From: Candidatus Electrothrix aestuarii
Lineage (GTDB): Bacteria > Desulfobacterota > Desulfobulbia > Desulfobulbales > Desulfobulbaceae
Assembly (NCBI GenBank): GCA_032595685.2
Contig: CP159373.1
Location: forward strand, 2,191,001 to 2,255,000
Direction: 5' to 3'
Length of the DNA stretch: 64,000 nt
In this document: positions 14,728 through 36,701 of the stretch, in pieces
Layout: each line of letters begins with the position of its first letter
Numbering within the stretch: the first letter of the stretch is position 1
Made by a program: the position numbers and the translations under genes
The notes under the pieces: model-generated
Told to the model about the DNA's origin: nothing
The model's database searches: none
What the model saw: the letters and a program-made list of their open reading frames with translations, nothing else

Positions 14728-15678
14728 TTAACTATAGTGATTGTACGATTTAAATCGTTTCCATAGTGTTCGGAAAAAATGTAACTGGACACATAAGGTG
14801 CAGTCGATCCAGATGATAGGATTTCTTTCTCCTAGAAGGAGCTGTATATATTGTTTGGTTTCAGAGAGGCTGAAAGCGTTTTTGTAGCCCACCAGGCCAG
14901 CGAGGTGGCCGAAACTTCGAGAAAAAAGGCGGTTGGAGAACGGTTTAGATTCTGGGTACCTGCGTTGCAGATACCACGCGGTTCGAATACGTATTTCAGC
15001 ACCGGTGCGCAGCATGTTGGCATCATATTCGTAAAGATTTTTGCCGTGTATTCGATGTATGGCCAGTTCCTGCGGACAGACAACCCCGGGAGAGTTACAT
15101 ATAGAAGCAAGGCATAAAAATGAATCGGCTGAGATTCGGAATGCTTCAGGCATTGGGAAGATTTTTTTCAGCAAACTCGTCCGAAACGAAAGACCTGTTG
15201 TGGCAGGATTAACGAAAGGTAGCTTCTGCACATTTTTTATAGCCTGACGAAGGTCAATAAACCGCAACTCTTCAATAGCTCCTTGTCGAGGTATACAATT
15301 CCCTTCAGGGTCAACACGCGGAAGTTTATGGAAAATCCAGTCAGCATCAGGGTACTGACCAAACAGTTCGGCAATACCGGATACTTTATTGGGCTTGAAG
15401 GTGTCATCTGCGTCAAGAAAGCAGATTATCTCTCCATGAGAGACTTCAACTCCAGCATTAAAAGCGGACGCTTGCCCTCCGTTTTCTTTTATTACTGATC
15501 GAATAGAGTCTCCGTATTTATCGATAATATTGTGAGAGTCGTCTTGAGAACCGTCATCTACAACGATAACTTCCGTATTCGTGTAGTCCTGATTCAAGGC
15601 GCTTTCAATAGCATCGTCTAAAAAGTCAGCGTAATTATAATTATTAATGAGGATTGTAACCAGTGGTGTTTTTTTCAT
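14728..15678 (-). CDS. Family 2 glycosyltransferase (GT-A fold)
   Basis: 316 residues. The N-terminus VTILINNYNYADFL, VDDGS at 40-44, and the metal-binding FLDADD at 87-92 are classical GT2 features. Such enzymes transfer a sugar from a nucleotide donor to a lipid-linked acceptor at the cytoplasmic membrane face. The last 90 residues are helical and basic, with no clear transmembrane helix. It is third in a leftward unit after the deacetylase-like and WecG/TagA genes, 4 bases after the latter. Donor and acceptor unknown. Confidence 0.9.
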   Translation of the reverse strand: MKKTPLVTILINNYNYADFLDDAIESALNQDYTNTEVIVVDDGSQDDSHNIIDKYGDSIRSVIKENGGQASAFNAGVEVSHGEIICFLDADDTFKPNKVSGIAELFGQYPDADWIFHKLPRVDPEGNCIPRQGAIEELRFIDLRQAIKNVQKLPFVNPATTGLSFRTSLLKKIFPMPEAFRISADSFLCLASICNSPGVVCPQELAIHRIHGKNLYEYDANMLRTGAEIRIRTAWYLQRRYPESKPFSNRLFSRSFGHLAGLVGYKNAFSLSETKQYIQLLLGERNPIIWIDCTLCVQLHFFRTLWKRFKSYNHYS

Positions 15679-15682
15679 ACGG

Positions 15683-16459
15683 TCATGTTACCTCATTCGT
15701 CGAGTTATTTTTGTTACGGTATAAGCCACATTTTTCACGCAATACATTTAAAATAAATAAAGGGTTACCAATTAGGTAGCGTTTGTACCCTCTTTTAGGA
15801 TCTTGCAGAAATAGCCAAAGCCATTCCATATGAAGATTGATGAAAAGCTGCGGGCTTCTCTTTAACAAGCCCGCCATATGCTTAAAGGCACCACCGCAAA
15901 TCATATATACCTTTACATTGAGCTTTGGATGATTATCCATAAGCCAGTTCTCCTGGATCGGCATTCCCATACCTATCCATATAATATCGGGTGCTGCATC
16001 GTTAATTTTTTGAAGAACGGCATCGTTCTCTGGCCCATGTTTCTGGAAATACCCATGATGCATTCCGACAATATTCAATTCAGGAGCATGCGCCTTTAAG
16101 CGGAAGGCAACTTTTTCGGCCAGTCCTTCAGGACCCCCCAACAGGAAAAGGCTATATTTTTTTTCAGTGATATAGTCAGTCAGCGGCCATACCCAATCAG
16201 CCCAAGTCAAGCGCTCATAAAGATTGTAGCCCAGGATTTTCCCTCCCCAGATCACACCGTGCCCGTCAATGGGAACCATGTCGGCCTGATTATAAAAATT
16301 ACGTAAGCGAGGGTCATTACAAGCATGATTTATACCGTGGATATTCGATGAAAGCACAAAACCAGGGCTGTCGTGTTCAATAATTCCGCTGATTTTGTCA
16401 TGAATTTCCTGCATGAAAGCGCAAGTTACTTTAACTCCAAGTATTTTGTAGTGTCGCAT
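15683..16459 (-). CDS. WecG/TagA/CpsF-family glycosyltransferase
   Basis: 258 residues, normal family size. The family pattern is clear: FVLSSNIHGINHA, PIDGHGVIWGG with conserved Asp65, RLTWADWVWPL, FLLGGPEGLAEKVA, and WIGMGMPIQENWL, ending in a basic amphipathic tail (LFINLHMEWLWLFLQDPKRGYKRYL) that docks relatives on the membrane. TagA uses UDP-ManNAc and WecG UDP-ManNAcA; either kind of sugar is possible here. It is the middle gene of a three-gene unit and probably adds an early sugar of the repeat unit. Confidence 0.93.
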   Translation of the reverse strand: MRHYKILGVKVTCAFMQEIHDKISGIIEHDSPGFVLSSNIHGINHACNDPRLRNFYNQADMVPIDGHGVIWGGKILGYNLYERLTWADWVWPLTDYITEKKYSLFLLGGPEGLAEKVAFRLKAHAPELNIVGMHHGYFQKHGPENDAVLQKINDAAPDIIWIGMGMPIQENWLMDNHPKLNVKVYMICGGAFKHMAGLLKRSPQLFINLHMEWLWLFLQDPKRGYKRYLIGNPLFILNVLREKCGLYRNKNNSTNEVT

Positions 16460-16513
16460 GTTGAATCCAAGAAAAAGGAAAAGTCAAATACGCTGCATCC
16501 GATAGCTGAGCAG

Positions 16514-17806
16514 TTACGAATAATCTATTAGCTCAGTTTTCGGAGGTAAGGGAGGGGGGAAACCTATCCAGCCGCTACCTGTTGACTCTAGTCCGAAAAG
16601 TTCAGTCGCTACTTTCTGGTCGCGCAACTGAATGTAAGTATCCCTAGCGATAGGGGTATAAAAGCATATCCCGGCCAGCTCATCAACAGAAGGAATACGT
16701 TTACCTTCAACGGGGTCTTTCAGTCCATTTATTTTGATTATTATCTTTTTCTTTTCACGAACCACCTGCCATTCAAGAAAATCATGTACATTTTTATATT
16801 GAAGGAGTTTTGCTGTCGGAGTCACCCAAATAAGTTTCTTCTTATAATAGTCTGCCAAGCAGTTCAATACTTCTTCTTCCTCAGACGGAAAAAAAATTTT
16901 GCCTTGATCCTGAATAACGGCCTTGGCCAGATGCGTATAAATTATTATATATCCCTGCTGCTGGATCAGCTCGTCCAATATTTTTTTTGCTAAAGAGTGC
17001 CGGAGACTGTTTGGTCCAGCTCCCCAAAGATCAGCTCTATTTGGATGCTGCGCGAAGCGAGTGAAAGCAATTAACGGACTTCCGTCACGGAGGGTAATGG
17101 TCTTCATCAGATCAGTGACAGTATCTGATGTTTTTATGCGGGTTGATTTCCCAAGAAGAATCTTAACCATATTTTTGAAATGGTTTAATGTAATCCTCTG
17201 TAGTTCTTTTCCTGATATTCTCTGCCTAGCAGAAGAAAGTGGCCATTGCACGATTTCTGACCACCAATGATATTTGATCCCTATTTTTTTGGCGAATTTA
17301 GCTGTATATAGGGGTGAGTGCGGATCGTCCCCTTGATACTGAGGCCAAAGTCTGGCGATCAAATTTTGATGATTATTTGGGGATCCATGATTAATCCATA
17401 TCGGAACCTCTAACCCGACTTTGGTAAGCTCTTCTGTTAGCTGCCGGGCGATTGTTTGTAAAAAAAGGGGATTAGGCGGAGCATCGTTAAAATCTCCCCA
17501 AGAGTGCAACGAGTCGATTAAACCATCCTGTATAGCCTGCCGAATAAACTCTGCCTCTCTGGGTCTGGAGGAACCATCAGGGTTAAAATAAGCCATATGT
17601 GCTTGATCTTTTGCGACCCCAAAAAAAGAATCGGCAACAGGAAGTCCGAGGCCATATTTTTCTGAATTGATAAATTGATGTATGGCTATAAAGGTATCAA
17701 GGTCACAGTTATCAATGTCCGAGCAGACGGCAAGAGCTGCCCTGAACGGATAGGGAAATTCTCTGATTTTCACAGGTTCTTTGCTTGATGATAAAAAAGT
17801 ATTCAT
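16514..17806 (-). CDS. Polysaccharide-deacetylase-like protein of the EPS locus
   Basis: 430 residues. The N-terminal part resembles a NodB-like (CE4-like) barrel: AALAVCSDIDNCD with candidate metal ligands Asp30 and Asp32, HSWGDF, and INHGSPNNHQN as possible His motifs, then IIIYTHLA and PTAKLLQY near the end of the barrel. The last 90 residues are beta-rich and end in a proline-rich FPPPLPPKTE tail. No signal peptide, so it would act in the cytoplasm unless exported otherwise. First gene of the leftward unit. The family call is moderate because the standard HxxxH motif is not clean. Confidence 0.55.
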   Translation of the reverse strand: MNTFLSSSKEPVKIREFPYPFRAALAVCSDIDNCDLDTFIAIHQFINSEKYGLGLPVADSFFGVAKDQAHMAYFNPDGSSRPREAEFIRQAIQDGLIDSLHSWGDFNDAPPNPLFLQTIARQLTEELTKVGLEVPIWINHGSPNNHQNLIARLWPQYQGDDPHSPLYTAKFAKKIGIKYHWWSEIVQWPLSSARQRISGKELQRITLNHFKNMVKILLGKSTRIKTSDTVTDLMKTITLRDGSPLIAFTRFAQHPNRADLWGAGPNSLRHSLAKKILDELIQQQGYIIIYTHLAKAVIQDQGKIFFPSEEEEVLNCLADYYKKKLIWVTPTAKLLQYKNVHDFLEWQVVREKKKIIIKINGLKDPVEGKRIPSVDELAGICFYTPIARDTYIQLRDQKVATELFGLESTGSGWIGFPPPLPPKTELIDYS

Positions 17807-18095
17807 TATTTTTAAATAAAAGTCTATAACACTTTTGCTTTACTCTTATTTCTATGCTCCATAGGAGATGAAAAAAGCAGAGAGATCATTAATAGTAAAG
17901 TAGTGATAAGCCCGATAGCTTTCCGGGATTTTTAATTATTTGGTACATGCTTTTCGTATAGGAAAAGAGCAAAAAAAACTCTTATGTCAACATAATGCTG
18001 TACTGTTCAGGATAGGTTCCACTCTTGAAGAATCATATAAAGAACGTCAGAAGCTTTTTGTCGCTTTACATACCATGCTAAGTAGTCATCCTTAA

Positions 18096-18252: not shown

Positions 18253-18509
18253 TAAACTAAAGAAGTGGTACAAGCAGCAAAATGGAAAGGGAGGTTGTTT
18301 GGAAAAAGTTTGAAGGCTGTATTGGCTTGCTGTATATAGTATGTGTTTTAATTGTATACTCGCCTTAAATTGCTGTTATTATTGTAAATTAAGTGTGCTG
18401 CAACCACGAACCGTCAGCTTCTTCAGGAAGAAGAAAAAATATTGTAATTGGAAATATCTATCAAGTCAACAGACAAAAATATACTTGAGATTCAGTGCGA
18501 TTAGTAAAG

Positions 18510-19532
18510 ATGCCTTATCCATTTTTTTGTAGATATTTTGTTACGGTCTCTGTTATTTGCTGTTTTCTTTTTTCCGGCTGCGCAAAAGAAAAAGAAAAGA
18601 TTCATGCTCCGACTGCTGTTGATTTTAAGGAGGAATCTATAAAAGAACGTATTATTCCTGCAAGTTATATGGTTGGTCCGTCTGATGAGCTGGAAGTGCT
18701 GTACTACATGGACCCGGAATATTCCATGGGCGATTATATTATTGATGCAGAAGACAAGCTGCGTGTTGATTTTTATTATTATCCAGAACTAAGTAAAAGT
18801 GTACAAGTCAGACCGGATGGATTTATTACCCTTCCCAGGGTGGGAGATATAAAGGCGGCAGGTGAGGTTCCCAGTGTCCTTGCGAAAAAGATATCGGAGA
18901 CTTTTTCGGAGTATCTCTCCCAGCCTGTTGTGACTGTCGAATTGACAGAATTTAATGCAAAAATTAACAAGCTGAAAGCTGCTGTCAGCTCAGTAAATAG
19001 AGGACAGGCAAAATATGCAGTTGTTCGACCGGATGGTAAAATTTCTCTTCCTTATCTTAAAGAGCCTATTTTTGCGGCTGGCAGTACTACCATAGAGCTC
19101 GGTAAAAAAATTGAAAATGCTTACAGAAGTTATATTAAAAATATCAGCATAACTATTTCCCTATTGAAGGCAAATTCGTATCGTGCTTGTGTTATCGGAG
19201 AGGTCGTGAAATCAGATTGTTATTCCTTGTCTGGGAATACATCTTTTTTGGATATCCTTGCTCGTGCCGGTGGGGTAACTACTAAAGCGAATACGCAGCA
19301 AATTGTTATTATTAGTCGGGGAGATAAAGGTCGCCCTGTTTCGTCTGTGATAGATCTGCAGAACATAATCAAAAAGCAAGAGTACTATCCGATGGTCCAA
19401 CAATACGATGTTATCTATGTTCCCCGTACTTGGCTTTCAGAAACAGCATTAACAGCACATGAAATTTGGAAAATAATACCACTGAGCGTATCTGCCAGTT
19501 ATAATCTTGCCAATATATTTAATAAAGAATAA
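18510..19532 (+). CDS. Wza-like polysaccharide export lipoprotein
   Basis: 340 residues from the ATG at 18510; a GTG at 18495 is an alternative, and neither has a strong ribosome site. A lipoprotein signal ends at the lipobox FLFSGC. Two polysaccharide-export modules follow, each with the RPDG(F/K)I(T/S)LP motif (near 100 and 170), then an SLBB-like region (YRACVIGEV...LDILARAGGV). The C-terminus (HEIWKIIPLSVSASYNLANIF) could form the amphipathic outer-membrane helix of Wza. The duplicated export module makes it longer before the SLBB part than a minimal protein. It heads the rightward operon. Confidence 0.88.
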   Translation: MPYPFFCRYFVTVSVICCFLFSGCAKEKEKIHAPTAVDFKEESIKERIIPASYMVGPSDELEVLYYMDPEYSMGDYIIDAEDKLRVDFYYYPELSKSVQVRPDGFITLPRVGDIKAAGEVPSVLAKKISETFSEYLSQPVVTVELTEFNAKINKLKAAVSSVNRGQAKYAVVRPDGKISLPYLKEPIFAAGSTTIELGKKIENAYRSYIKNISITISLLKANSYRACVIGEVVKSDCYSLSGNTSFLDILARAGGVTTKANTQQIVIISRGDKGRPVSSVIDLQNIIKKQEYYPMVQQYDVIYVPRTWLSETALTAHEIWKIIPLSVSASYNLANIFNKE

Positions 19533-19712
19533 CAAGAAAATATCAAGGTCCTGCAACGAGGTCATGGTGTTCGCTCCAGTCGCCCGTTTTATGGAGGGGT
19601 GGCCGCATCACTTGAGCTACCCCATTATCTCATGCAGGGTGCCAAAATAGAACGAGTTCAAATCGCTGAGTGATTTCGACTTACTGTAAATAAATAACAT
19701 AGGAAGGCTGTG

Positions 19713-20615
19713 ATGAAAATTGCATATCTCATTCTTGCGCATAACAATCCAAAACAACTGCATCGATTGGTTAAATCTCTAGCATCTTCTTCCAGTGGTA
19801 TTTTTGTTCATATTGACCGAAAATCTGATATAAAAAATTTTTCAGAGGTGATGAATGAAAGTGTTTCTTTCTCTAGAGAGAGAGTAGCTGTTTATTGGCG
19901 TGATTTTTCAATAGTGGAGGCGACACTTATCTTGCTAAGAGAAGCAGTTGCTCATATTGATCAGTTTGACTACTATGTTGTTTTAAGTGGTAATGATTAT
20001 CCTTTGCGGTCTCAGGCGTATATTATTAATTTTTTCAATAAAAATAAGGGAAGAGAATTCATGAATATAATTCAGATGCCCTGCAAGAGAGCCGGAAAAC
20101 CTCTTTTTCGGCTGACCACATATAAACCACGTCCTGGAGACTCAAAACTTTCCAAGACAATTTGCAAAATACCGAGCAGGTTACTTAGTGCGCTTTCCTA
20201 TCGTCGTGATTATCAATTGTATTTCCAAGGATTACAACCTTATGCCGGGAGTGCTTGGTGGGCTTTATCCCGTGAAGCGTGTCAGCATATTCTTCATTTT
20301 ATAGAAGAAGAAAAACAGTTAATTGATTTCTACAAAAATACCATAAATCCTGATGAATCGCTGTTTCAAACAATTTTAGGGAACTCGCCGTATCAATCTC
20401 GTATAGTGAGAAATGTTACTTATACGGATTGGAGTGGTGGACGAGCACATCCCATTAATTTAACAGAAAGACACCTTGAATTTTTTCAAAAAAAGCCAAT
20501 TATTTTAGAGGATATATATGGAAAAGGGGAACTTCTTTTTGCCAGAAAATTTTCTAATGACGCCGAAAAATTAATCAGAAAGCTGGATCAGATTATTAGA
20601 GAATCTGAGGATTAG
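19713..20615 (+). CDS. Core-2/I-branching-type glycosyltransferase (GT14)
   Basis: 300 residues from the ATG at 19713 (AGGAAGG at 19701-19707; a GTG one codon earlier is less likely). It begins KIAYLILAHNNPKQLHRLV and contains IFVHIDRKS, YYVVLSGNDYPLRS, and the late GSAWWALSREACQHI and NPDESLFQTIL motifs, all characteristic of bacterial members of the beta-1,6-N-acetylglucosaminyl or xylosyltransferase family. It likely adds a branch sugar in the cytoplasm. Second gene of the rightward operon, 180 bases after the Wza gene. Donor sugar not determinable. Confidence 0.87.
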   Translation: MKIAYLILAHNNPKQLHRLVKSLASSSSGIFVHIDRKSDIKNFSEVMNESVSFSRERVAVYWRDFSIVEATLILLREAVAHIDQFDYYVVLSGNDYPLRSQAYIINFFNKNKGREFMNIIQMPCKRAGKPLFRLTTYKPRPGDSKLSKTICKIPSRLLSALSYRRDYQLYFQGLQPYAGSAWWALSREACQHILHFIEEEKQLIDFYKNTINPDESLFQTILGNSPYQSRIVRNVTYTDWSGGRAHPINLTERHLEFFQKKPIILEDIYGKGELLFARKFSNDAEKLIRKLDQIIRESED

Positions 20616-20776: not shown

Positions 20777-22207
20777 ATGAATACATGGGAACCAGAAACA
20801 ATACGTATTTCTCTTCGCGAAATTTTTTATGTTATCTTTTTAAAAATTCATATAGCGGCTGGGATATTTTCTATAGTTGTTATATTAACAAGTTTTTATA
20901 TTTTTTCTTTAAAACCAGAATATTTCGCAGCCGGACAGATATTGGTCAAACCATTCGTTGATACTCGCCAGGAGGTTTTTGCAGGAAACGCTTTCCGGGT
21001 TGATTCCCCTTCTGAAACACGTATGAATACAGAAAAAGAAATCTTAACCTCCCATGAATTGACTGAAGATGTAATTAAAGTGTTAGACCTGAAACCACCC
21101 CCCCCGAAACCTCCTGGCCTTCTTGTTCGTATAGGCCTTTCATCACCCCCATTGCCCCCTCATCAAGCACTTATTCGGTATGTAAAAAAGGGGGTAAAAG
21201 TAAAGCTTGTTACTAATTCACAATTAATCACTGTAAGCAAGAAAGGAGATGATCCTGAAGCTATTACTAAGATATTGAATGCCTATATGCAGTGCTATAT
21301 TAAGCGCCATATTCAGGTGCATAAGTCGATCAGCGGGGTAGCTTTTTATGAAAAATGGATACAGAAGTATGAACAGGAATTGGAAGATGCAGAAGGCAGT
21401 TTAGAGAGTAAAATAGCAAAATGGGACATTATACATATTAGAGAACAGAAAGTCCAGAATCTTGCTCTGTTACGGGTTCTGCACCAGAATTTGAGCGAAG
21501 TGAAAGGGGAGTTAGCCAGCAACAATGTCGTTATAAAAAATATTACGAATGGAATAGGTCGTGATGGCTACCTTACTACCATTCCGAATGTACTACGAAA
21601 TAATATTTTGTTAGCAGCATTGACCCGAGGTAGTATCCCATTAATTATTGAAAAAGGAAAAGTTACGAGCCTGTACCGGAAAACTTCTACAGAGTGGATT
21701 GATGCAGACAAGCAGTTAAGAAATTTTATGAATGAAATAAAAAATATGCAGGAGGGATTGCGGGAAGGGATGATTGTTGATTTTCAGGCACTGGAAGCAA
21801 AGAAGAAAAGCATTGAACAAGATATCAGCAATACTCATGTTGAGTTACAGAAACTCGCTAGAATAGAAAATGAATATCAAAATTCAGTTATTAAAGTAGA
21901 GCAGGCCAGAGAAACCTACAAGCTCTACCTGAATCGTTTGGAACAGGAACGCATAGAAGAACAGAGGGACATTGCTGGTGTCTCGAATGTTTCCATTCTC
22001 AGTAAAGCAACTGTACCTTCCAGTCCAGATGGCCCGAGTAAAAAAATTTTGCTTTTTGTCTCCATTGTTATAGGTGGAATTGCAGGCATAGGTTCAGCAT
22101 TTGCCACTTATTATCTTGATCATACGGTTAAAAGAGCAAGTGACCTAGAAGGTCTTTTGCATCAGCCGGTTTTATCTGAATTGGGTAATATCAAGGTGCG
22201 GAGGTAA
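20777..22207 (+). CDS. Wzz/GumC-type polysaccharide chain-length and co-polymerase protein
   Basis: 476 residues with two membrane helices (about 19-45 and 425-450) flanking a large periplasmic coiled-coil domain, the standard PCP arrangement. A proline-rich LKPPPPKPPG and SSPPLPPHQ stretch near 110-140 interrupts the first periplasmic part. A Pro-Ser rich ATVPSSPDGPSKK precedes the second helix, as in GumC-like PCPs. It controls chain length and links Wzy, Wza and the kinase. The ATPase gene starts 3 bases after its stop with the ribosome site at its 3' end. Confidence 0.9.
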   Translation: MNTWEPETIRISLREIFYVIFLKIHIAAGIFSIVVILTSFYIFSLKPEYFAAGQILVKPFVDTRQEVFAGNAFRVDSPSETRMNTEKEILTSHELTEDVIKVLDLKPPPPKPPGLLVRIGLSSPPLPPHQALIRYVKKGVKVKLVTNSQLITVSKKGDDPEAITKILNAYMQCYIKRHIQVHKSISGVAFYEKWIQKYEQELEDAEGSLESKIAKWDIIHIREQKVQNLALLRVLHQNLSEVKGELASNNVVIKNITNGIGRDGYLTTIPNVLRNNILLAALTRGSIPLIIEKGKVTSLYRKTSTEWIDADKQLRNFMNEIKNMQEGLREGMIVDFQALEAKKKSIEQDISNTHVELQKLARIENEYQNSVIKVEQARETYKLYLNRLEQERIEEQRDIAGVSNVSILSKATVPSSPDGPSKKILLFVSIVIGGIAGIGSAFATYYLDHTVKRASDLEGLLHQPVLSELGNIKVRR

Positions 22208-22210
22208 CCT

Positions 22211-22894
22211 TTGAAAAAAAAAAGGAATACGCCTCGTCTTTGGGTGAAAGAAGCTGGAAAATATCAAAAAGCTGTCGAAAGCTTCAGAACACTGGAAAAT
22301 ACAATTTTCCGGTACAAAGAAAAAGAGAATGTACAGACAATCCTGATAACAGGTGTTGAAAGGAGAGTAGGAACCTCGACAGCTGCCTTTAACCTTGCGT
22401 TGATTTGTGCAAAAGACATGCCCCAACAAAAAATTCTCCTGATTGACACCGATATATCTTCACCAAGCCTACATAAATCTTTTGACTTTCCTCCTTCGCC
22501 GGGAGCTATAGATTTTTTTTATGGAGAAGCAATGCTATCCGAGGTTGTACAAGAATCTTTTCTGCCGAACCTGAAATTGATAGGCTTAGGGGGGAATAGT
22601 AAAGAGTCCATTTCGCCTTTTACTCGTCAATCCTTTCAGGATTTTCTGCAATTTGTGAAAAAACACTACGATTTTATTTTTATTGATTCAGCACCGTGGC
22701 TTAATTCATCGCATACACAACGCGTTTCTTTACAGACGGACGGTGTCATCGTAGTAGCTGAAGCTTATAGGACACATATAGAAACTGTTACCGAATTGTA
22801 TCATAAGTTGCAGCTTAATAATATTTTTCTTCTCGGCAGTTTTTTGAATCGCAGGCGACATCCTGTTCCTCAATGGTTATATAATCGTATATGA
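22211..22894 (+). CDS. BY-kinase/CpsD-like ATPase lacking the Walker A lysine
   Basis: 227 residues starting at TTG (22211) with GGAGG 6 bases upstream; no earlier start fits. It matches cytoplasmic tyrosine-kinase domains paired with Wzz: SFRTLENTI, the nucleotide loop GVERRVGTSTAAFNLAL (48-64), Walker A' ILLIDTD (75-81), and Walker B FIFIDSAP. In the loop the usual Gly-Lys-Ser/Thr reads Gly-Thr-Ser, so the catalytic lysine is missing. The C-terminus has one Tyr instead of a tyrosine cluster. It is therefore probably a non-phosphorylating regulator of the PCP, or has very different nucleotide use. Confidence 0.85.
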   Translation: MKKKRNTPRLWVKEAGKYQKAVESFRTLENTIFRYKEKENVQTILITGVERRVGTSTAAFNLALICAKDMPQQKILLIDTDISSPSLHKSFDFPPSPGAIDFFYGEAMLSEVVQESFLPNLKLIGLGGNSKESISPFTRQSFQDFLQFVKKHYDFIFIDSAPWLNSSHTQRVSLQTDGVIVVAEAYRTHIETVTELYHKLQLNNIFLLGSFLNRRRHPVPQWLYNRI

Positions 22895-23015: not shown

Positions 23016-23462
23016 ATGATGCATTTTTTGAGAAGCCGAAATTCTTTTTTTGAATTTTGCCTTATTCTTTTTGTCGGAATTGCCGCTGCCTCTGCGGTAA
23101 TCCGCGTCTCAGGTATGGAACCGAAATGGTTTAAAGTGCTTATTATCGGGGCACTCGGTTCAGCGTTTTTGAGTATCCTCCTTCCCCGTCATGAAAAAAT
23201 ATTTCTTCTCACTTTAGCTTTTTTGCTTCCGCTTACAATTTGTACTGATCTTTATAAAGAAAGCGTTCCTTATGAACGTTCAATCAACGCATTGAAAATT
23301 TCCGCTTTTGATTTGTTGTTTTTTCCTCTTCTGCTGGAATGGTTGTATAGAATTGTTACTGATTATAGAGTTCGTGTATCTTTATTCCCGCATATCACAA
23401 TACCTTTTTTCTTATTGTTATGTTATGCATTGCCGGATTGTACCCGGTTGAGCATACTCTGA
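23016..23462 (+). CDS. O-antigen ligase/Wzy-like protein, N-terminal fragment (frameshifted)
   Basis: 148 residues with four hydrophobic segments, ending at a stop within what should be a membrane helix. The continuation is in the frame of the next ORF (23420-24553), which starts upstream of this stop. The two frames together give a polytopic protein of about 510 residues. A T6 run at 23405-23410 lies in the open overlap; loss of one base there would account for the shift. Either a real inactivation or phase-variable site, or a sequencing error. Confidence 0.65.
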   Translation: MMHFLRSRNSFFEFCLILFVGIAAASAVIRVSGMEPKWFKVLIIGALGSAFLSILLPRHEKIFLLTLAFLLPLTICTDLYKESVPYERSINALKISAFDLLFFPLLLEWLYRIVTDYRVRVSLFPHITIPFFLLLCYALPDCTRLSIL

Positions 23463-28457: not shown

Positions 28458-29927
28458 TTACTTGCCCTTGCACCCTACGACTTCTCGCACTGTTTTGAAT
28501 AGAATTTCAAAATCATCCATTAATTTCCAGTTGTCAATATAGTTAAGATCTAATTCCATCCATTTATCAAAATCTGCTTCATTTCTTCCCTCAGTCTGCC
28601 ATCGGCCTGTGATACCCGGCTTAGCGCTGAATCGTCTTCTGTGGCTATTACTAAAAAAACGCTCAAAATCTCTAATCGGCAAGGGTCTTGGGCCTACAAG
28701 ACTCATAGTACCGAAAAGAACGTTTATAAGTTGTGGCAGCTCATCCAAGCTGGTTTTTCGAAGGAATTTTCCCAATCTCGTGACTCTGGGATCGTTTGTC
28801 AATTTGAACGCTGCTCCCTGCACTTCATTGAAACGTTCCAGTTCTGCAAGACGTTGTTCGGCATCTTTGACCATTGTCCGGAATTTAAACATCTTGAACC
28901 TTCTCTTATTTAGCCCGACACGTTCCTGAACAAAAAATGCTGGCCATCCGTCGTCAATGTAAATAGCGAGCGCGATCACAGCAAAGAGAGGAGAGAGTAG
29001 AGCAAGCCCTAAAAAGGAGAAAATCAAGTCAAAGAGGCGTTTGAAGTCATGTTCAAGAGAAAATTTCCTATTGAAATCGCAAGGCAGAAAGTTTTCTTCG
29101 ATGCGTCTCGGTTGGATAAATGGCAACTTAAAGAAATCATTAACTAATTGCGCCTCTGTTCCTTGGACTCTACATTCTTTTAAAATTTTGGCTATGGTAT
29201 CATAAAATCCTCTTAAAGGAAGCATTATAAATACTATATCTACCCTGTTTTCTGAGAGATATTTTTCAATGTTGTTAAGTGAGCAAAGCAAAAGATGCTG
29301 CGGGGCAGGGGAACGAGAAGCCTCATCAGCATATCCTAGAATAACATATTTTTTTATTGGATAATTTATCTCTTCGGCAAAAGCAAGGGAGCGTTCGTTT
29401 ACACCTACAATAAGAGCGTGGGGCAGGTCATCTTGCTGCCGAATATTCTTGTCAAAACGCAGAATGGTTGCCCCTGCTACTCTATATATAAAGAATATGC
29501 CTGTCCATGTTGCCAGTGATATGAGAACATTTTGAAGAACCGGCGTGCTGTTGTTCAAGAGGAAATTAAGTATGCTCAACAAGGGGAACTGACAGCTGAG
29601 TGCTGCTGCTATGGAGACTATTATGCGCAGGATAAAGTGCTTCCGCCTCTCTTCCACTATAATAGTGTATTGATACAGCCCCATGTCAGTCAATATGCTA
29701 TGCCAAAGCCAGACCGAGAAAATGAGCATAAGCCATTGGCTTAGAGATAAACCCCGGAGCTGGATAAAATCACTCAGGAAGGCTTGAGTCGACTCCAGGG
29801 AGCAAAGTATTTTTCCAGAAATCGTTATTTTATCTATAAGCGCAAGAGGCAGAAAAAGGAACAGGATGCCGTCAATATATTGAAACGCCTTTTCGATAAT
29901 CGAGATTTTTATATTAGTTTGGTTCAT
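28458..29927 (-). CDS. Polyprenyl-phosphate sugar phosphotransferase (WbaP/PglC-like, intact)
   Basis: 489 residues. An N-terminal set of membrane helices and a Rossmann-like domain (about 168-265, ALIVGVNERSLAFAEEI) precede the catalytic bacterial sugar transferase domain (about 295-485). Catalytic-domain motifs are FVQERVGLNKRRFKMFKFRTM, DPRVTRLGKFLRKTSLDELPQL with the Asp395-Glu396 dyad, and GPRP at 412-415. The enzyme moves a hexose-1-phosphate to undecaprenyl phosphate and so starts each repeat unit. It overlaps the upstream paralogue's 3' end by 14 bases. Confidence 0.94.
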   Translation of the reverse strand: MNQTNIKISIIEKAFQYIDGILFLFLPLALIDKITISGKILCSLESTQAFLSDFIQLRGLSLSQWLMLIFSVWLWHSILTDMGLYQYTIIVEERRKHFILRIIVSIAAALSCQFPLLSILNFLLNNSTPVLQNVLISLATWTGIFFIYRVAGATILRFDKNIRQQDDLPHALIVGVNERSLAFAEEINYPIKKYVILGYADEASRSPAPQHLLLCSLNNIEKYLSENRVDIVFIMLPLRGFYDTIAKILKECRVQGTEAQLVNDFFKLPFIQPRRIEENFLPCDFNRKFSLEHDFKRLFDLIFSFLGLALLSPLFAVIALAIYIDDGWPAFFVQERVGLNKRRFKMFKFRTMVKDAEQRLAELERFNEVQGAAFKLTNDPRVTRLGKFLRKTSLDELPQLINVLFGTMSLVGPRPLPIRDFERFFSNSHRRRFSAKPGITGRWQTEGRNEADFDKWMELDLNYIDNWKLMDDFEILFKTVREVVGCKGK

Positions 29928-31329
29928 TACACGTAAGACGTGTCAGGTTGGTTTTTATGAATTTTTTCAATATCTTGTAGTCTGTTATGGCCCCCTGGTG
30001 AACGATATAATTAAGTTCCATCTGAATATTTTTTTCAGGGAGCACGGAGCCTTCTTTATTAATAGAGTATGGAGAAATTAAGCCGGGTTTGACTTCGAAG
30101 AGGCGTGGATCAAGGGCCTGATGTGTATCTGGATTATGAGCATCTTGAACAGATATAGGCTTTGGGCCTATAATGCTCATATCACCCTGAAGAATATTAA
30201 ACAGTTGGGGGATATTTAAGAGGCCTCTTTTTTTGAGAAAAACAATTGCTTGTATATCTTTAAACTGCACCATCCTGAAAGTTTTTTTGTTGAGGCCGAT
30301 ATATTCTTTCAGGGAAAACGGCCAATAAAAAGAATTTAAGACCCACACGGTAAGAAGAAGAGGAGTTACAAAAAATAATGCGCACAAAGAGATAATTTTA
30401 TCCGCCAGAAATTTGATACTGATTTGAATTTCCTCTTCTCTGCCGGGAGTAGAAGTCGGTGAGTCCACAGTGAAATTGGAAAGGTCACCATCGATATAGT
30501 TAAATGCTCCAGCTTCAAATGTAAAGAAGTCGTTGAGCACCCGGACAGTAAGACCTGTTGCTAGAGAATATTGAATAATACTTTTAAGCTCATCATAGAA
30601 ACTTCTGACTGGGAGCGTAAGGAAGATTTCATCTACACGGTGCGTTTTAATATATTCTTCCACTCCTTGCAGGGAACATACTACATCAAGAGCTTTAGCA
30701 TATTCTTCTGGAAGGTCTTCTGGAAGGGCATCAGTAAAACCTAGGAGTTTGTAACCTGATGCATGGTTTCTGAGATTTTCAGCCAGAGCAAGAGAACGGA
30801 CATTCAGTCCAACAATCAGAGCATTTGTTACTGGCTGATGAATGTTTTTTTTTCTGAGGAGCAATGCAAACGATATTCTGTACAGAAGAAAAAGAAGCAG
30901 TAAAGCTCCCAGGCAAGCAAAAGCGGATTGTATCGTACTGAAATATAAAAAATGTCTTTCCTTGCTTGGAAGATCAAAGATAAGTATACTTTTCTTGATC
31001 AGGATAAGAGATAAGAGTATGAGACCCCATCCCAAGGTTATTGCTATACAACTCCTTATAATAATATCTTTCCATGCTTTTTCATACCACACCTCTTTGT
31101 TCAGGATCGGAGAGGATTTTGTATGCATGAAGAAGGAGAAAATAGATTTCCAGCAAAAGACAAGCAGCGTCATTATGCCTCCTTCCCATAATGATACCAA
31201 TGTAATGTCAGGGAAAGCCAATCCGTTTTTCCCCGTACAAACGAGAAAAAAGAGAATCAGCAGAACGGAATCAATCCAATGCAGCAGGATGGTGCCGAGA
31301 GAATATCCCGATGTTGGTCTATACGTCAT
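29914..31329 (-). CDS. Degenerate sugar-transferase paralogue (probable pseudoenzyme)
   Basis: 471 residues with the same architecture as the following gene: N-terminal helices, Rossmann-like domain (LIVGLNVRSLALAENL), and a short C-terminal transferase-like domain. In that domain the KFRTM motif reads VQFKDI, about 28 residues including the DPR segment are missing, the Asp-Glu dyad of SLDELPQL is replaced (GLLNIPQL, Leu371 and Asn372), and GPRP is GPKP. Catalysis by the known PglC mechanism should be impossible. The frame is intact and translationally coupled to the active paralogue, so a partner or regulatory role is plausible. Confidence 0.85.
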   Translation of the reverse strand: MTYRPTSGYSLGTILLHWIDSVLLILFFLVCTGKNGLAFPDITLVSLWEGGIMTLLVFCWKSIFSFFMHTKSSPILNKEVWYEKAWKDIIIRSCIAITLGWGLILLSLILIKKSILIFDLPSKERHFLYFSTIQSAFACLGALLLLFLLYRISFALLLRKKNIHQPVTNALIVGLNVRSLALAENLRNHASGYKLLGFTDALPEDLPEEYAKALDVVCSLQGVEEYIKTHRVDEIFLTLPVRSFYDELKSIIQYSLATGLTVRVLNDFFTFEAGAFNYIDGDLSNFTVDSPTSTPGREEEIQISIKFLADKIISLCALFFVTPLLLTVWVLNSFYWPFSLKEYIGLNKKTFRMVQFKDIQAIVFLKKRGLLNIPQLFNILQGDMSIIGPKPISVQDAHNPDTHQALDPRLFEVKPGLISPYSINKEGSVLPEKNIQMELNYIVHQGAITDYKILKKFIKTNLTRLTCNEPN

Positions 31330-31619
31330 GTATCTTCAGCTTATGTATATACATTAAGTAGGTGGCCAAAAATAAATTAACTTTTTGATTTGCCTATCTA
31401 TCTGTAAATAGGAGGATCAATCGAATTGCTTTTGTTGAAATAATTTTGGTCGGGTACTTAAAGAAAGAATTTATAACGAATGTACAACGAAAGATACTCG
31501 ATTGGCAAGATATATAGCTCGTGAGGAGGAGAAGAGAGAAATACTGCCATTTGACTGTCAATAGTTTTTCCGAGCAAAAACGACTGGTTTATGGATTGGT
31601 TGCTATCTTGCCAACTCGT

Positions 31620-31967
31620 TCAGGCCGCTTTTTTGAATTTTTCTGTACTCGTTTTTTGTTGAAGCGTTTCGATTGCGGCGCTGACAGAAGAGTAAAGGGG
31701 AAGAACTGAATGAAGACGTGTCAATTCCATAATTCTTCGAATATCTTCTTTAATTCCAGAAATGAGTAGTTCAGTTTTGCCCCATGTACTGTTTGCAACA
31801 GCAATAATAGCTCCCAGTCCCGTGCTGTCTATAAAATCTATACCGGTAAAATCTAGAACAATAGCATCGTTATCTGTGGTGACCTGTGCTAACTTCTCTC
31901 GGAAAATTCTCACGCTACTGCTATCTAAACGACCCAGCTCGTCAAAAGAAATCACTGTATATTTCAT
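31620..31967 (-). CDS. STAS-domain anti-sigma factor antagonist
   Basis: 115 residues, full length for SpoIIAA/RsbV-like proteins. The central DAIVLDFTGIDFIDSTGLGAII has the phosphorylatable serine (Ser48) in the DSTG motif. Such proteins bind a HATPase anti-sigma kinase when unphosphorylated and release its target. The divergently encoded HATPase protein (32431-33717) is the obvious partner. Its ATG overlaps a doubtful 75-residue ORF upstream. The Lys-rich tail (QQKTSTEKFKKAA) is unremarkable. Confidence 0.9.
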   Translation of the reverse strand: MKYTVISFDELGRLDSSSVRIFREKLAQVTTDNDAIVLDFTGIDFIDSTGLGAIIAVANSTWGKTELLISGIKEDIRRIMELTRLHSVLPLYSSVSAAIETLQQKTSTEKFKKAA

Positions 31968-32191
31968 CGGGCGCCCTTGCTTTTCGGATTATTGATAATA
32001 TCTTCCTTTAGATTTATAATATCTGAATACAGGAGAGAGTTCAAGTTTTTATACAGATGGTTTTGTTTTTTGTATATCGCGAATGAAGTCTTTATGCCTT
32101 TCGTGTTGAATTTAGAATTAATGGACACAGTGGGCCGTTTTATAGGCTTTTTTGAGAAGAGGTTATTTTTTACATCACCACTCCTTTCCAC
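31964..32191 (-). CDS. Doubtful 75-residue basic ORF ahead of the STAS gene
   Basis: GTG start at 32191, ending in a 4-base overlap with the STAS start codon, which is typical of coupled genes. The product is strongly basic (many Lys and Asn) with no recognisable family. A true ribosome site is not obvious. It could be a small coupled gene or simply the STAS leader. Confidence 0.25.
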   Translation of the reverse strand: MERSGDVKNNLFSKKPIKRPTVSINSKFNTKGIKTSFAIYKKQNHLYKNLNSLLYSDIINLKEDIINNPKSKGAR

Positions 32192-32430
32192 TTTCGCAGG
32201 GCTACATATTTGAGCTCGTTTTAAAAAGATGTTTAAAATAACCTAGTTGCGAGGTGGTTCGTAAAAAGGTTTCGTCATGTGCGGAATGTCGGTTAAAAGC
32301 AAACCCGGAAAAAAAATCGAATTCTGACGACAAGTCTAAATTGCTGCATATTTTAGTAGAGGCAAAAGTCGAAGTGAAGGTCAGGTTTTTTCTACGGAAC
32401 GGAAGCCCTCCCGGATAAAAAGGTAACTGA

Positions 32431-33717
32431 ATGAACAAGTATTGTGTTATTACTACTGATGAAATGCTATTTGAAACAATATCCGTGAGTATTGCTTCGT
32501 CAGATATTCAACAGTGCCTCGCTTTGAGCAATATCACCTGTTTTTCTGAAGCTGTTGAGTACATTAATACAGAGCTCCCGGACGTTGTGTTGATAAATTT
32601 TTCAGACAACACCATGAATAGCTTTGCTTTACTGGATATGATGATCAAGGATCAGTGGCTTCTCAATACCGGTATTATTGCTATATCGAATTGTTCTAAC
32701 GATACAAAAAAATTGGAAGAACTTCGGTGTGCTAATATTATTGTTGTCATAGAAGAACGGCTGATTGTATCAGCGTTGCCTAAAATACTGTCCATTGTAT
32801 TGAAAAACAGACGTATTCTCTTTCAGCGTGGGCTGGGGATGGGCATCATGGAAAATATTTCCGGGTCATTCTGGCTGGAGAACGACCCTCTGGAAGTTAC
32901 ATCTTATGCCAACCTTATTGCAAATTTTTTATTTAATGCAAAAAAAATAGACAGTAAGGGGAAATTCGATCTTCAGCTAGCCCTTACTGAAATGTTTATG
33001 AACGCCGTTGAACACGGTAATTGCGCAATTGGGTTTGAAGATAAAAAACAATGGATTGAAAGTGGAGGGAACATGGGAGAACTGATATTGCAACGTAATC
33101 AGCAACCCGATATCCTGAAGAAACGAGTCCGTTTCGAGTATACGCTCAAACCGATGGAAGGATATTTTTCTATTACCGATCAGGGAGAAGGGTTTGATTG
33201 GCCTGGAATTATGGAACGTATAGAACAGCAGGGACTTCTTTCTTTAAATGGGCGGGGGATTTTGCTGGCGCAGAGTGTAACGCGGGACCTCACATATAAT
33301 GAAAAGGGGAATGCTGTGACATTTAAATTTTTCTATAACGAGGAAATGGCTGAGCTTGTTCCGGCGCTCTTTAAAAATATCGAACCTCGGAAGGTAGATC
33401 AGGGAGATATAGTTTTTCAACAGGGAGAATCAAGCAGCTCTCTCTATTATATAGTCAATGGCTCTTATGATATTATTGTTAATGGAAAAATTGTTTCCTG
33501 TTTAAACTCCGACGATATTTTTATGGGTGAAATGTCTTTTCTTCTCAATAACAGACGTTCTGCAACAGTACGGGCTAAGGTAAAAGGACAGCTTATCAAG
33601 ATCTCGAAAAAGGAATTTGTTCGGGCCATTAAGGAAAAGCCTCATTATGCGCTTTTTCTAACCCGGCTTCTTGCCCAACGTATACATCGTGGAAATCATT
33701 TTGAGCGAATGGACTAA
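32431..33717 (+). CDS. Partner-switch regulator: pseudo-receiver, HATPase (RsbW-like), cNMP-binding domain
   Basis: 428 residues. Residues 1-125 look like a receiver domain, but the acceptor position in PDVVLINFSDN is Asn56 instead of Asp. Residues 150-305 form an RsbW/SpoIIAB-type HATPase: N box ExxxNAVEHG (187-196), G1 DQGEG (250-254), and G2 NGRGI (273-277). Residues 312-420 are a cyclic-nucleotide-binding fold (GDIVFQQGESSSSLYYIVNG, FMGEMSFL). It should phosphorylate or sequester the STAS protein encoded divergently. No sigma factor is nearby, so the output may be another protein of the locus. Confidence 0.85.
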   Translation: MNKYCVITTDEMLFETISVSIASSDIQQCLALSNITCFSEAVEYINTELPDVVLINFSDNTMNSFALLDMMIKDQWLLNTGIIAISNCSNDTKKLEELRCANIIVVIEERLIVSALPKILSIVLKNRRILFQRGLGMGIMENISGSFWLENDPLEVTSYANLIANFLFNAKKIDSKGKFDLQLALTEMFMNAVEHGNCAIGFEDKKQWIESGGNMGELILQRNQQPDILKKRVRFEYTLKPMEGYFSITDQGEGFDWPGIMERIEQQGLLSLNGRGILLAQSVTRDLTYNEKGNAVTFKFFYNEEMAELVPALFKNIEPRKVDQGDIVFQQGESSSSLYYIVNGSYDIIVNGKIVSCLNSDDIFMGEMSFLLNNRRSATVRAKVKGQLIKISKKEFVRAIKEKPHYALFLTRLLAQRIHRGNHFERMD

Positions 33718-33746
33718 TAGACGTGACACCGGTCAGGCGGAGCTCA

Positions 33747-34691
33747 TTATCCGTTAGTAGACTGTTCAAAAAGAGAGAGAGCAAAGGGTTTGTCTTTGTC
33801 CTCGCCTATTTTTTCTGCAAAAAGTTCTTCTTGCTTTATCGTGACTCCTGAGAGGCGCCTTAGCTGTTCTTTTTTGAAAAAAGAAGCCAACTCTGGGTCA
33901 TCCAACCTCTCCTCCTGCTTTAGGAGCGCGACGATATATCCTATAAAAATAAAGAGCCCGCTGAAATAGGGGCGTTCCATAGATCGGTAGATCGCCCTGC
34001 CAAGGGCGAAGAGAAGACCTTCACGTAAGTAGTAGCAGGATTTTCCATAACTAAGATACGTTTTCACCGCGCCCATTTCACCACCCATTTGTCTCAGATG
34101 ATAGACAGGGAGTTCGCGGGCGGAATGTGTTCTCCAGCCTTTCATTCTCGCTTTTGCTCCGTCTAATTTATCCCAGCCTAAAATCGGAATAAGTCCTCCG
34201 ATATCGCGAAAACACTCCAGACGGTACATTTTACATGGTCCTACAGTATGTACATTCGGGCATCGTTCCATCTGCCAACGGTCATTTTTCAGAATAAAAG
34301 TTTTTCCTGACGCTATACCCAGTTTTTCGTCGGCAGCAAATTTTTTTAGTAAAAATTCGAAATATTGTTTTGGTAAAACCACATCCGCATCCATTTTTAC
34401 AGTAAAGTCAAGCTGATCAACCTTGGTGCAGTCATATCCCTTATTAAAAACATGCACCACGTTAGGGCCCAATCGTCGGGCAGTATCTCCTGAAAGGCTT
34501 ACTGGTTGGATAAGCGGATATTTTTCTGCTGCCTCCGTTATAAGAGACCAAGTGTTATCCGTCGATCGATCATCAACGATAACCCACTGTTCAGGAGGGT
34601 GGGTTTGGTCGATAATTGACCGGATTACAAACGGAAGGAATCGAGCTTCATTATAAACCGGAGTGATTATATTGTATTTATATTGAGTCAT
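33747..34691 (-). CDS. Family 2 glycosyltransferase
   Basis: 314 residues. NIITPVYNEARFLPFVIRSII, VDDRST at 39-44, and MDADV at 100-104 define a GT-A fold GT2 enzyme. Later parts include GWDKLDGAKARMKGW and HLRQMGG, as in membrane-associated GT2 proteins without a transmembrane channel. A hydrophobic segment (about 244-260) may touch the membrane. It ends a three-gene leftward unit, 24 bases after the GT4 gene, and converges with the regulator gene. Confidence 0.9.
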   Translation of the reverse strand: MTQYKYNIITPVYNEARFLPFVIRSIIDQTHPPEQWVIVDDRSTDNTWSLITEAAEKYPLIQPVSLSGDTARRLGPNVVHVFNKGYDCTKVDQLDFTVKMDADVVLPKQYFEFLLKKFAADEKLGIASGKTFILKNDRWQMERCPNVHTVGPCKMYRLECFRDIGGLIPILGWDKLDGAKARMKGWRTHSARELPVYHLRQMGGEMGAVKTYLSYGKSCYYLREGLLFALGRAIYRSMERPYFSGLFIFIGYIVALLKQEERLDDPELASFFKKEQLRRLSGVTIKQEELFAEKIGEDKDKPFALSLFEQSTNG

Positions 34692-34715
34692 ATCTCGTAT
34701 TTGTTGATATATTTA

Positions 34716-35939
34716 TTAATGTGAAGGATCGCTGGCAATGACCTGTTCAAACACAGGGACAAGTCTTCTAACATTTTGTTGTATATTGAACATCTGTTGG
34801 GCACGTTTTCGGCCTTCTCTCCCCATCCGTAAAGCCAGTTCAGGTCGCGTTGCGAGGATCGCTAATTTGTCAGCCAACTCATTATAATTTTCCCTGGTGA
34901 AAAGAAAACCGGTTTCTTCCTCAATAACCATTTCAGGAATTGCGGTGATGCGAGGCGCTACCACAGGGCGTGCTTTGAGCATAGCTTCGATAATTGTCAT
35001 AGGAGTGCCTTCGCTAAGTGAAGAGAGCACCATGATTTGAGACCAGTCAAATAATGACGCGACATCGGACTCATAGCATGCCCCTAAAAGAATAACGGAA
35101 TCGTTCAGCCCCAATTTATCAATCAACGCTGTTATTTCTTCACGTTTTGATCCCTCTCCAGCAATTCGACATTCAAACACAATACCCTTTTTTTTGAGGC
35201 GCGCACAGGCCCGAATCAGAATGTCGTGTCCTTTGACCTCTTCCAAGCGTGCTACGTTTAGGATACGGAGAGGAGATGTTTCGGGAATCCGGGTTTGTTT
35301 TGACCACAGTGCTGAATCGTTATCTATGCCCAGGTACACAAGATGAAATTTTTGTTTTTCAAGGGAAGGATAACGTCTGACCAGATTGTGTATATGGAAT
35401 TTGCAGTTAGAAATGATAAATCGGGCGTATTGCAGCTTTTCTTCCGTGAAAGGCTGTGGAAGTAAAACATCAGAGCCATGAATGCTGATACTGTAGGAAA
35501 TGTTGCTGATAGTTTGTAAGAAAATTGCGACCCCTGCCGCTCCAAAAGCGAAATGTACGTGGACATGAGAAATGTTTTTTTCTTCCAAAAAATCTACCAG
35601 GAGGACAGCTCCAAGAAATCTGGTTATATTTCTGAAGCGCATCCTGGGGAATTCTTCATCCACTAGGGAGAACGCAAAAAGGAAACCTTTGATATAGCGA
35701 AGAGGGGCTTGTATAAGACGCTTACAGTTGCTTTTGATGTACAGGTTCAACGGTGCTGATTTGAGATAAAATGTTTCTTCAAGCAAATCTTGGTCCGCTG
35801 GGTGGTGCTCTCCAGCCTGAGGGCGTTGATTAGAGACAAGAACAGGATGTATTCCGATATTTCTCAGTGCCCTGACTTCCCGTTGCAGAAAGGTTGTTGA
35901 AATTATCGGGAAGCTGGAAAAAAAGTAAGCGATTTTCAT
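34716..35939 (-). CDS. Family 4 glycosyltransferase (GT-B fold)
   Basis: 407 residues, typical length. KIAYFFSSFPIISTTFLQREV opens the N-terminal domain and VHVHFAFGAAGVAIFL lies in it. The C-terminal domain starts PLRILNVARLEEVKGHDILIRA. It carries the donor-binding motif SEGTPMTIIEAMLKARPVVA with the paired Glu residues of GT4 enzymes. Retaining transfer from a nucleotide sugar to the growing lipid-linked unit is expected. The gene follows the membrane protein gene by 12 bases. Confidence 0.93.
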   Translation of the reverse strand: MKIAYFFSSFPIISTTFLQREVRALRNIGIHPVLVSNQRPQAGEHHPADQDLLEETFYLKSAPLNLYIKSNCKRLIQAPLRYIKGFLFAFSLVDEEFPRMRFRNITRFLGAVLLVDFLEEKNISHVHVHFAFGAAGVAIFLQTISNISYSISIHGSDVLLPQPFTEEKLQYARFIISNCKFHIHNLVRRYPSLEKQKFHLVYLGIDNDSALWSKQTRIPETSPLRILNVARLEEVKGHDILIRACARLKKKGIVFECRIAGEGSKREEITALIDKLGLNDSVILLGACYESDVASLFDWSQIMVLSSLSEGTPMTIIEAMLKARPVVAPRITAIPEMVIEEETGFLFTRENYNELADKLAILATRPELALRMGREGRKRAQQMFNIQQNVRRLVPVFEQVIASDPSH

Positions 35940-35951
35940 TGAATGGAGAAC

Positions 35952-36701
35952 TTATTGATTATCAGGTATTTTTAAGCTTTTTTTCAGGGTATTGGGAAGA
36001 AAGTTATCAATAAAAGAAAACGTATCATCATTCTGATTTGTTAAGGACTGGAAAAAGATATAGTAAAGCATCAAACTGGCAGAAAACATTTCTCCTCCGT
36101 CTTCTGCGACACCAAAGATCCCGGTTGTAATTCTTCCGATGTGTATGGAACTGTGTGCTATATCAAAAAAGATACTCATAAACGCCGAGACGCTCAGGAG
36201 AACGAACATGTCCCTGGATATTTTTCTAAATCTTTCATTGCCGTGCATATAACTAAATGCAATAAAAAAAAGCAAAATTATACCGGCGAAACTTGATATA
36301 ACAAGTTCCCCGATATCTTGAATTCTTAACCCCAACGGCTGAAGGAAGGTGAGATATTCTGTTATGTTTCTTCCCAAATTTTCATGAATTTCAAAAGCAT
36401 CATCAAAAAGAATATATGTAAAAATCAGAACCCATGATCCGTAATGTATTGATTTGTTGGTGATAGACAGGTAACTTATCAGGATTATTATCCAAAACCA
36501 TTTTATATATTGATATATCTCCGAATATCCACCATCTTTATAAAGAGAATAAAGATCATTTTCTATTAACGAAGTTAATGCTTCAATAGAATGCAGGGCA
36601 ATAAAGACGAAATCCGCAAGAAAAAGAAGCATGAGAAAGAGGAGCAATCTCTTTTTTAAAATTTTTATTGTATATTGAGGTGGTATTTTTTTCTGAATCA
36701 T
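35952..36701 (-). CDS. Six-helix membrane protein of unknown function
   Basis: 249 residues, no family recognised. About six transmembrane segments (near 16-35, 66-83, 87-101, 130-152, 163-184, 202-220). Several acidic and His residues lie in or next to helices: DDAFEIHENLG, FDIAHSSIH and AEDGGEMF. Such an arrangement could bind metal, as in membrane-embedded hydrolases of the ceramidase/CREST kind, but similarity is only suggestive. First gene of a leftward unit with two glycosyltransferases, which points to a role in polymer or lipid-linked sugar metabolism. Confidence 0.6.
   Translation of the reverse strand: MIQKKIPPQYTIKILKKRLLLFLMLLFLADFVFIALHSIEALTSLIENDLYSLYKDGGYSEIYQYIKWFWIIILISYLSITNKSIHYGSWVLIFTYILFDDAFEIHENLGRNITEYLTFLQPLGLRIQDIGELVISSFAGIILLFFIAFSYMHGNERFRKISRDMFVLLSVSAFMSIFFDIAHSSIHIGRITTGIFGVAEDGGEMFSASLMLYYIFFQSLTNQNDDTFSFIDNFLPNTLKKSLKIPDNQ

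Follow-up and report, generated by a model that had tools for sequence, protein, structure and literature searches.

Genes of the locus and a cassette that persists

The window analysed here is a 64,000-nucleotide stretch (positions 2,191,001-2,255,000) of the single-contig 5.11-Mb genome (G000) of the cable bacterium Candidatus Electrothrix aestuarii. It carries a Wzx/Wzy-type polysaccharide locus in which a gene for a protein with HATPase and cyclic-nucleotide-binding domains, here called the regulator, lies head to head with a gene for a stand-alone STAS protein, with a gap of 463 bp between them (Table 1). An earlier sequence-only reading had listed these genes and proposed that the pair controls polymer output in response to a cyclic nucleotide. 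Its genes and coordinates, the Wzx/Wzy assignment and the divergent arrangement of the pair were borne out by checks of open reading frames (ORFs) and protein families. As in loci with an initiating polyprenyl-phosphate glycosyl-1-phosphate transferase (PGT) of the WcaJ/WbaP type, a Wzx flippase, a Wzy polymerase, a Wza-type export protein, a polysaccharide co-polymerase, an initiating PGT and several glycosyltransferases are encoded together. The locus differs from these in having an extra, degenerate PGT gene before the active one, a split wzy gene, and a BY-kinase-like protein with VGTST in place of the Walker A lysine that is usual, but not obligatory, in the tyrosine autokinases of Wzx/Wzy loci.

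In the close relative G007, DNA identity is 96% up to window position 14209, where purL ends, and picks up again at 37220, ahead of the VWA/BatA-like gene, which is 97% identical to its G007 counterpart and is present in six of the seven other Electrothrix genomes. Between these points just two stretches align with G007. One is the start of the Calx-beta lipoprotein gene (27658-28012); the other, 28465-33707, has 69-79% identity to G007 1269165-1274655 and is inverted as a whole block, the orientation of its genes being flipped relative to the flanks between two otherwise near-identical genomes. The G+C content is 37-45% within the locus and 44-58% in the flanks, and the same site in G006 and G003 holds different polysaccharide gene sets. 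Given the conserved flanks and the replaced interior in G007, G006 and G003, this is a hypervariable, capsule-type exchange locus. In G003 the site holds Wza, co-polymerase and Wzy genes with no match to the regulator or the degenerate PGT, so these functions can fill it without a detectable copy of either.

What persists through the replacement is a 5.3-kb block (28458-33717) with the genes for the regulator, the STAS protein, the degenerate PGT and the intact PGT, in identical order in G000, G007 and G001. All four genes are under purifying selection, with ratios of nonsynonymous to synonymous substitution rates (dN/dS) of 0.12-0.30 against their relatives. Recurrence of the block at such values, degenerate PGT included, points to more than chance. 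Elsewhere in the genus the regulator keeps other company. In G002 it lies head to head with the STAS gene beside a family 2 glycosyltransferase (GT2) synthase and three DUF3131-type genes, and in G006 it lies beside purL, with a GT2/DUF3131 operon beginning about 4.5 kb off (Pfam assigned DUF3131 to one of the three genes in G002 and to all three in G006).

Among the eight Electrothrix genomes searched, five have the regulator, accompanied by the degenerate PGT in G000, G001 and G007 and by the GT2 synthase in G002 and G006; G003, G004 and G005 gave no match to any of the three. In all eight, the regulator is present when the genome has either the PGT pair or the GT2/DUF3131 operon, polymer machines that are unrelated to each other, and absent otherwise. 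By our count such a perfect 5/3 split has a probability of 1/56 under independence, although the genomes are not independent and G005 has a completeness of just 69%. Across 74 genomes from 14 genera of the wider family, a single Electronema genome was the one further carrier. Because the regulator sits with one of the two machines and is absent when both are, the proposed regulatory link between it and polymer output is supported. The regulator-STAS pair adjoins the PGT pair in G001 and G007 and the GT2/DUF3131 operon in G002, and the regulator is near such an operon in G006. The condition that the sequence-only reading had set for its own refutation, a pair remote from polysaccharide genes in close relatives, thus did not hold.

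Table 1. Genes of the locus and its conserved flanks, in window coordinates
Feature	Position	Strand	Evidence
PurL-like (FGAR-AT), conserved left flank	10400..14230	-	Pfam GATase_5/FGAR-AT domains
Family 2 glycosyltransferase	14728..15678	-	PF00535 E=1.2e-28
WecG/TagA/CpsF glycosyltransferase	15683..16459	-	PF03808 E=3.8e-50
Orphan 430-aa protein	16514..17806	-	No Pfam/NCBIfam match; sporadic relatives in the order
Wza-like polysaccharide export protein	18495..19532	+	PF02563 E=2.9e-32; similar proteins in G007, G003
Core-2/I-branching-type glycosyltransferase	19710..20615	+	PF02485 E=2.1e-27
Polysaccharide co-polymerase (Wzz/GNVR)	20777..22207	+	PF02706, PF13807
BY-kinase-like ATPase without Walker A lysine (VGTST)	22211..22894	+	PF13614
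wzy/O-antigen-ligase gene, split	23016..24553	+	PF04932 in second part
Wzx flippase	24528..25961	-	PF01943 E=4.2e-37
Lipoprotein-like, Calx-beta and alginate-lyase-like C-terminal domain	26493..28163	-	PF03160; PF05426 weak, under cut-off
Intact PGT (initiating enzyme)	28458..29927	-	TIGR03025 327.1 vs cut-off 295.55 bits
Degenerate PGT	29914..31329	-	Catalytic Asp-Glu segment gone; kept in G001, G007
Stand-alone STAS protein, DSTG serine	31620..31967	-	PF01740 E=2.3e-14
Regulator	32431..33717	+	PF13581 (HATPase_c_2), PF00027 (cNMP_binding)
Family 2 glycosyltransferase	33747..34691	-	PF00535 E=5e-16
Family 4 glycosyltransferase	34716..35939	-	PF00534 E=2.2e-35
Membrane protein	35952..36701	-	No Pfam match
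VWA/BatA-TPR protein, conserved right flank	37792..39873	+	PF13519

The regulator and its probable STAS partner

The regulator is composed of a pseudo-receiver (residues 1-125), a Bergerat/RsbW-type ATPase domain (about 141-303) and a CRP-type cyclic-nucleotide domain (about 305-425). An AlphaFold model with a mean pLDDT of 81 has a (beta-alpha)5 receiver fold in the first of these regions and an RsbW/SpoIIAB fold in the second, and the C-terminal region was assigned to the CRP-type domains by sequence. The best solved relative, both by sequence (first 300 residues, E=8.1e-12) and by fold (Z 19.9), was 9QIH, titled as the response regulator LvrC from Leptospira, with the molecule named 'SenB' in the deposit. 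Comparison with SpoIIAB and the RsbV/RsbW complex gave Z of about 16. The Bergerat fold carries the N, G1 and G2 motifs, and its residues E187, N191, H195, D250, G252 and G274 are invariant in 19 homologues, as are G366, E367 and R376 of the cyclic-nucleotide domain. The predicted phosphate-binding cassette, of the pattern G-E ... R-S/T-A-T, is present in the regulator as GEMSFLLNNRRSAT. At the phospho-acceptor position of the receiver, occupied here by Asn56, the 19 homologues have N in 10, D in 5 and Y in 4, so most family members have a pseudo-receiver.

In LvrC an N-terminal receiver is likewise followed by a Bergerat anti-sigma-type domain (PDB 9QIH, PMC13269768). LvrC differs in its canonical phospho-acceptor aspartate, D53, where the regulator has asparagine, and in having no cyclic-nucleotide domain; nor was an adjoining hybrid histidine kinase seen at the Electrothrix locus. 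Among the papers searched, none described an RsbW-type regulator fused to a cyclic-nucleotide-binding domain.

The serine of the DSxG loop is conserved in the STAS proteins, which have DSTG in G000, DSRG in G007 and G001, and DSSG in G002 and G006. By position we equate this serine with the one that is phosphorylated in RsbV and SpoIIAA. As in the RsbW/RsbV and SpoIIAB/SpoIIAA switches, a Bergerat-type protein with its ATP-site motifs and a single-domain STAS partner with a predicted phosphorylatable serine are encoded side by side. The Electrothrix pair differs from those switches in its multidomain kinase, in its divergent genes and in having neither a PP2C phosphatase nor a sigma-factor gene in the locus. 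Three SpoIIE-type genes, all unlinked, are present in each of G000 and G007, and a PP2C_2-type gene is present in G002, G006 and G034. A promoter scan of the divergent gap found one sigma-70-like site matching at 11 of 12 positions (+ strand, 31992-32020); the total of 6 sites, against 3.4 in shuffled sequences, was given no weight.

A contig scan recovered 16 regulator loci, 13 of them outside the cable bacteria (Fibrobacterota, Planctomycetota, Spirochaetota and related metagenome-assembled genomes) with 37-51% identity over most of the length; the scan demanded one of two motifs, and divergent members were therefore missed. Genomes labelled Ca. Electrothrix gigas, Ca. Electronema and Desulfobulbaceae carry the same regulator, in keeping with the origin of the window in the genus Ca. 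Electrothrix. At three Spirochaetota loci the homologue is convergent with a sigma-70 gene of the RpoD/RpoS type (L072:4542-7057, L073:467-2757, L074:9902-13034), a lead to the ancestral target of the family.

These neighbours, and the proposal that LvrC, the closest solved relative, is a receiver-regulated anti-sigma factor (PMC13269768), favour an alternative in which the regulator acts as a genuine anti-sigma factor by binding and withholding a sigma factor, with the STAS protein in the role of anti-anti-sigma factor and the polysaccharide genes as only one part of the regulon. We regard this as rather unlikely, though it stands not far behind the reading favoured below. The regulators of the three Spirochaetota genomes are 83-87% identical, so the genomes are close relatives and not independent cases. 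In Electrothrix, where the locus itself has no sigma-factor gene, the tight linkage to PGT genes or to the DUF3131 operon points to a target close by.

The paired transferases and other altered genes

The intact PGT, which passed the curated TIGR03025 cut-off, contains the motif SLDELPQ. Its neighbour is a Bac_transf homologue that failed the same cut-off (113.4 vs 295.55 bits) and, compared with the active protein, lacks a stretch of some 35 residues as well as the catalytic Asp-Glu. At the SLDELPQ position the degenerate PGTs of three species have GLLNIPQ (G000) and GLRNIPG or GIRDIPR (G007, G001). The dN/dS of the degenerate PGT is 0.29 against G007 and 0.29 against G001, with dS of about 0.8-1.0; the dead catalytic region alone gave 0.25 and 0.30 (bootstrap upper limits 0.41 and 0.47). 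Both halves fall within 0.25-0.31, with bootstrap ranges well under 1. A dN/dS near 0.3 that extends to the dead domain indicates that this gene is not decaying. A profile of the three degenerate PGTs found no further copy in 395 sampled genomes of the phylum at E 1e-30, and none of the papers searched described a pseudo-PGT. As judged from its sequence, the degenerate PGT is a genus-level putative pseudoenzyme retained in front of its active paralogue.

The locus has been replaced as a unit and its G+C content is under that of the flanks, as would be expected if the regulator and STAS protein were an ordinary signalling pair carried along with the exchanged locus, polymer regulation being incidental and the degenerate PGT a duplicate heading for loss. 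The reading frames of the degenerate and active PGTs also overlap (29914-29927), and the former could thus be kept for translational coupling. The constraint on both halves of the degenerate PGT argues against such a fate, as does the company of the regulator, which is found with either of two polymer machines that have no relation to each other and is missing where both are. We consider this explanation improbable.

The sequence-only reading had counted four proteins with altered key residues or a broken frame. Three of these are readily seen: the degenerate PGT, the kinase-like protein without the Walker A lysine and the split wzy. The fourth was not named; candidates are the receiver of the regulator, with its Asn56, and the orphan 430-aa protein, which has no Pfam match. 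The suggestion that the altered residues belong to one special mechanism was not supported, as the features are unrelated to each other. In the kinase-like protein, VGTST occupies the place of GK[ST]T, and several relatives in the order carry T, V, A or C in place of the lysine. Versions without the lysine thus recur in the order and VGTST is typical of related proteins, which rules it out as a special feature of this locus.

The wzy gene is split into 23016-23462 and 23420-24553, with frames that overlap at a run of six T near 23405, whereas the gene is a single uninterrupted ORF in G007 (514 aa) and in G003 (488 aa). The split is specific to this genome and is probably a homopolymer indel from sequencing or assembly, or a recent mutation, with no special mechanism. 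The T run does form an in-frame -1 slippery heptamer, T TTT TTC, but the 18,760 codons of the window contain 21 in-frame T_TTT_TTY heptamers, so its presence is no evidence of programming, and a programmed -1 frameshift was not supported. Error, real mutation and programmed frameshifting are not separable from the assembled sequence.

The orphan 430-aa protein has relatives in three other genera of the order, with 50-54% identity in two of them and 30% in the remaining one, a distribution that suggests transfer. D30, D32, H101 and H140 are invariant across the aligned relatives. Its model has a pLDDT of 58, and carbohydrate deacetylases (COD/ChbG) are among many weak Foldseek matches (best E 8.8e-3); the protein is perhaps, on this weak resemblance of a predicted fold, carbohydrate-deacetylase-like. 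The N-terminal part of the Calx-beta lipoprotein is 59% identical to a G007 protein, and its C-terminal domain is alginate-lyase-like, whereas the counterparts in G007 and G003 end in a pectate-lyase/beta-helix-like domain, indicating a swap of the C-terminal domain within the variable locus. The G007 version of the locus encodes two proteins of great size, 1682 aa and 1098 aa (1283535-1291891), that by eye resemble non-ribosomal-peptide-type condensation proteins. Several short transposase-like ORFs, also identified by eye, lie at its right edge (1304253-1312204), consistent with a recombination-prone site. An XrtA/PEP-CTERM exopolysaccharide system was considered and rejected, all scores being under the NCBIfam equivalog cut-offs (export 144.7 vs 180, chain-length 83.4 vs 278.85 and kinase 98.5 vs 230.65 bits).

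Proposed control of polymer output

By analogy, the closest working precedent for the Electrothrix pair is SypE/SypA of the Vibrio fischeri syp locus, where a polysaccharide locus likewise encodes a receiver-bearing serine kinase of the RsbW type and a single-domain STAS protein whose serine lies in a DSxG loop, as here (PMC8256260, PMC10120452). In SypE the kinase shares one polypeptide with a receiver, placed centrally, and a PP2C phosphatase at the C-terminus. The Electrothrix regulator has its pseudo-receiver at the N-terminus and, without any PP2C domain, a cyclic-nucleotide-binding domain at the C-terminus instead. In Vibrio fischeri the STAS protein SypA is the downstream actor, and its target is described as unknown (PMC8256260, PMC10120452).

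We propose that the four conserved genes are a dedicated regulatory cassette in an exchangeable Wzx/Wzy locus, one that governs polymer output in the manner of SypE/SypA and takes its input from a cyclic nucleotide, a reading to which we give about an even chance. The regulator would be a serine kinase of the RsbW/LvrC type gated by a cyclic nucleotide at its C-terminal domain, and the receiver, mostly non-phosphorylatable, would probably serve as an oligomerisation surface. The regulator would phosphorylate the STAS protein on the DSxG-loop serine, and the phosphorylation state of the STAS protein would then set polymer output, as SypE does through SypA. Dephosphorylation would need an unlinked phosphatase or fresh synthesis of the STAS protein. 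Candidate STAS targets are the degenerate PGT, most likely a non-catalytic partner or regulatory subunit of the adjoining active PGT, and a sigma factor. That the PGT pair has stayed so closely with the regulator suggests that polymer initiation may be the controlled step.

Several observations weigh against this proposal. No phosphatase gene was found within the locus, and G001 has the regulator-STAS pair without a SpoIIE or PP2C_2 model match, which leaves a canonical three-part switch unproven. In G006 the STAS gene adjoining the regulator (4360997-4361275) is a frame-disrupted remnant, and the intact STAS gene ends the DUF3131 operon 14 kb away. The phyletic match comes from eight related genomes, four of which are fragmented drafts, and adjacency alone is no proof that neighbours are the target. 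At the 13 regulator loci outside the cable bacteria, where the translations were read but not every ORF was subjected to a domain search, no STAS or polysaccharide neighbour was seen. The regulator can presumably act without such partners, and on this reading of the 13 loci an inherent tie between it and polysaccharide genes in all taxa was rejected. Its pairing with a STAS protein at polymer genes, judged from these neighbourhoods, looks like a local recruitment.

A more specific form of the proposal joins its parts. The regulator would be a cyclic-nucleotide-gated STAS kinase of a novel type (pseudo-receiver, Bergerat and cyclic-nucleotide-binding domains), and the phosphorylation state of the STAS protein would act on the pseudo-PGT, which the active PGT would require as a regulatory subunit, so that initiation would be controlled post-translationally. 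We hold this combination to be a long shot. If true, cable bacteria would govern the committed step in making their surface polymer through a regulated pair of pseudoenzyme and enzyme, and the case could also give a lead to the target class still missing for SypA-like STAS proteins.

The family that the regulator defines is rare, extends across phyla and has in LvrC a single, partial structural relative. A kinase-like regulator, a STAS protein and a degenerate and an active PGT that travel together through near-complete replacement of the locus offer a lead to the target of polysaccharide-linked STAS proteins. The conductive fibres of cable bacteria rest on a polysaccharide-rich layer (PMC11976967), and the cassette points to specific control of surface polymer in these organisms.

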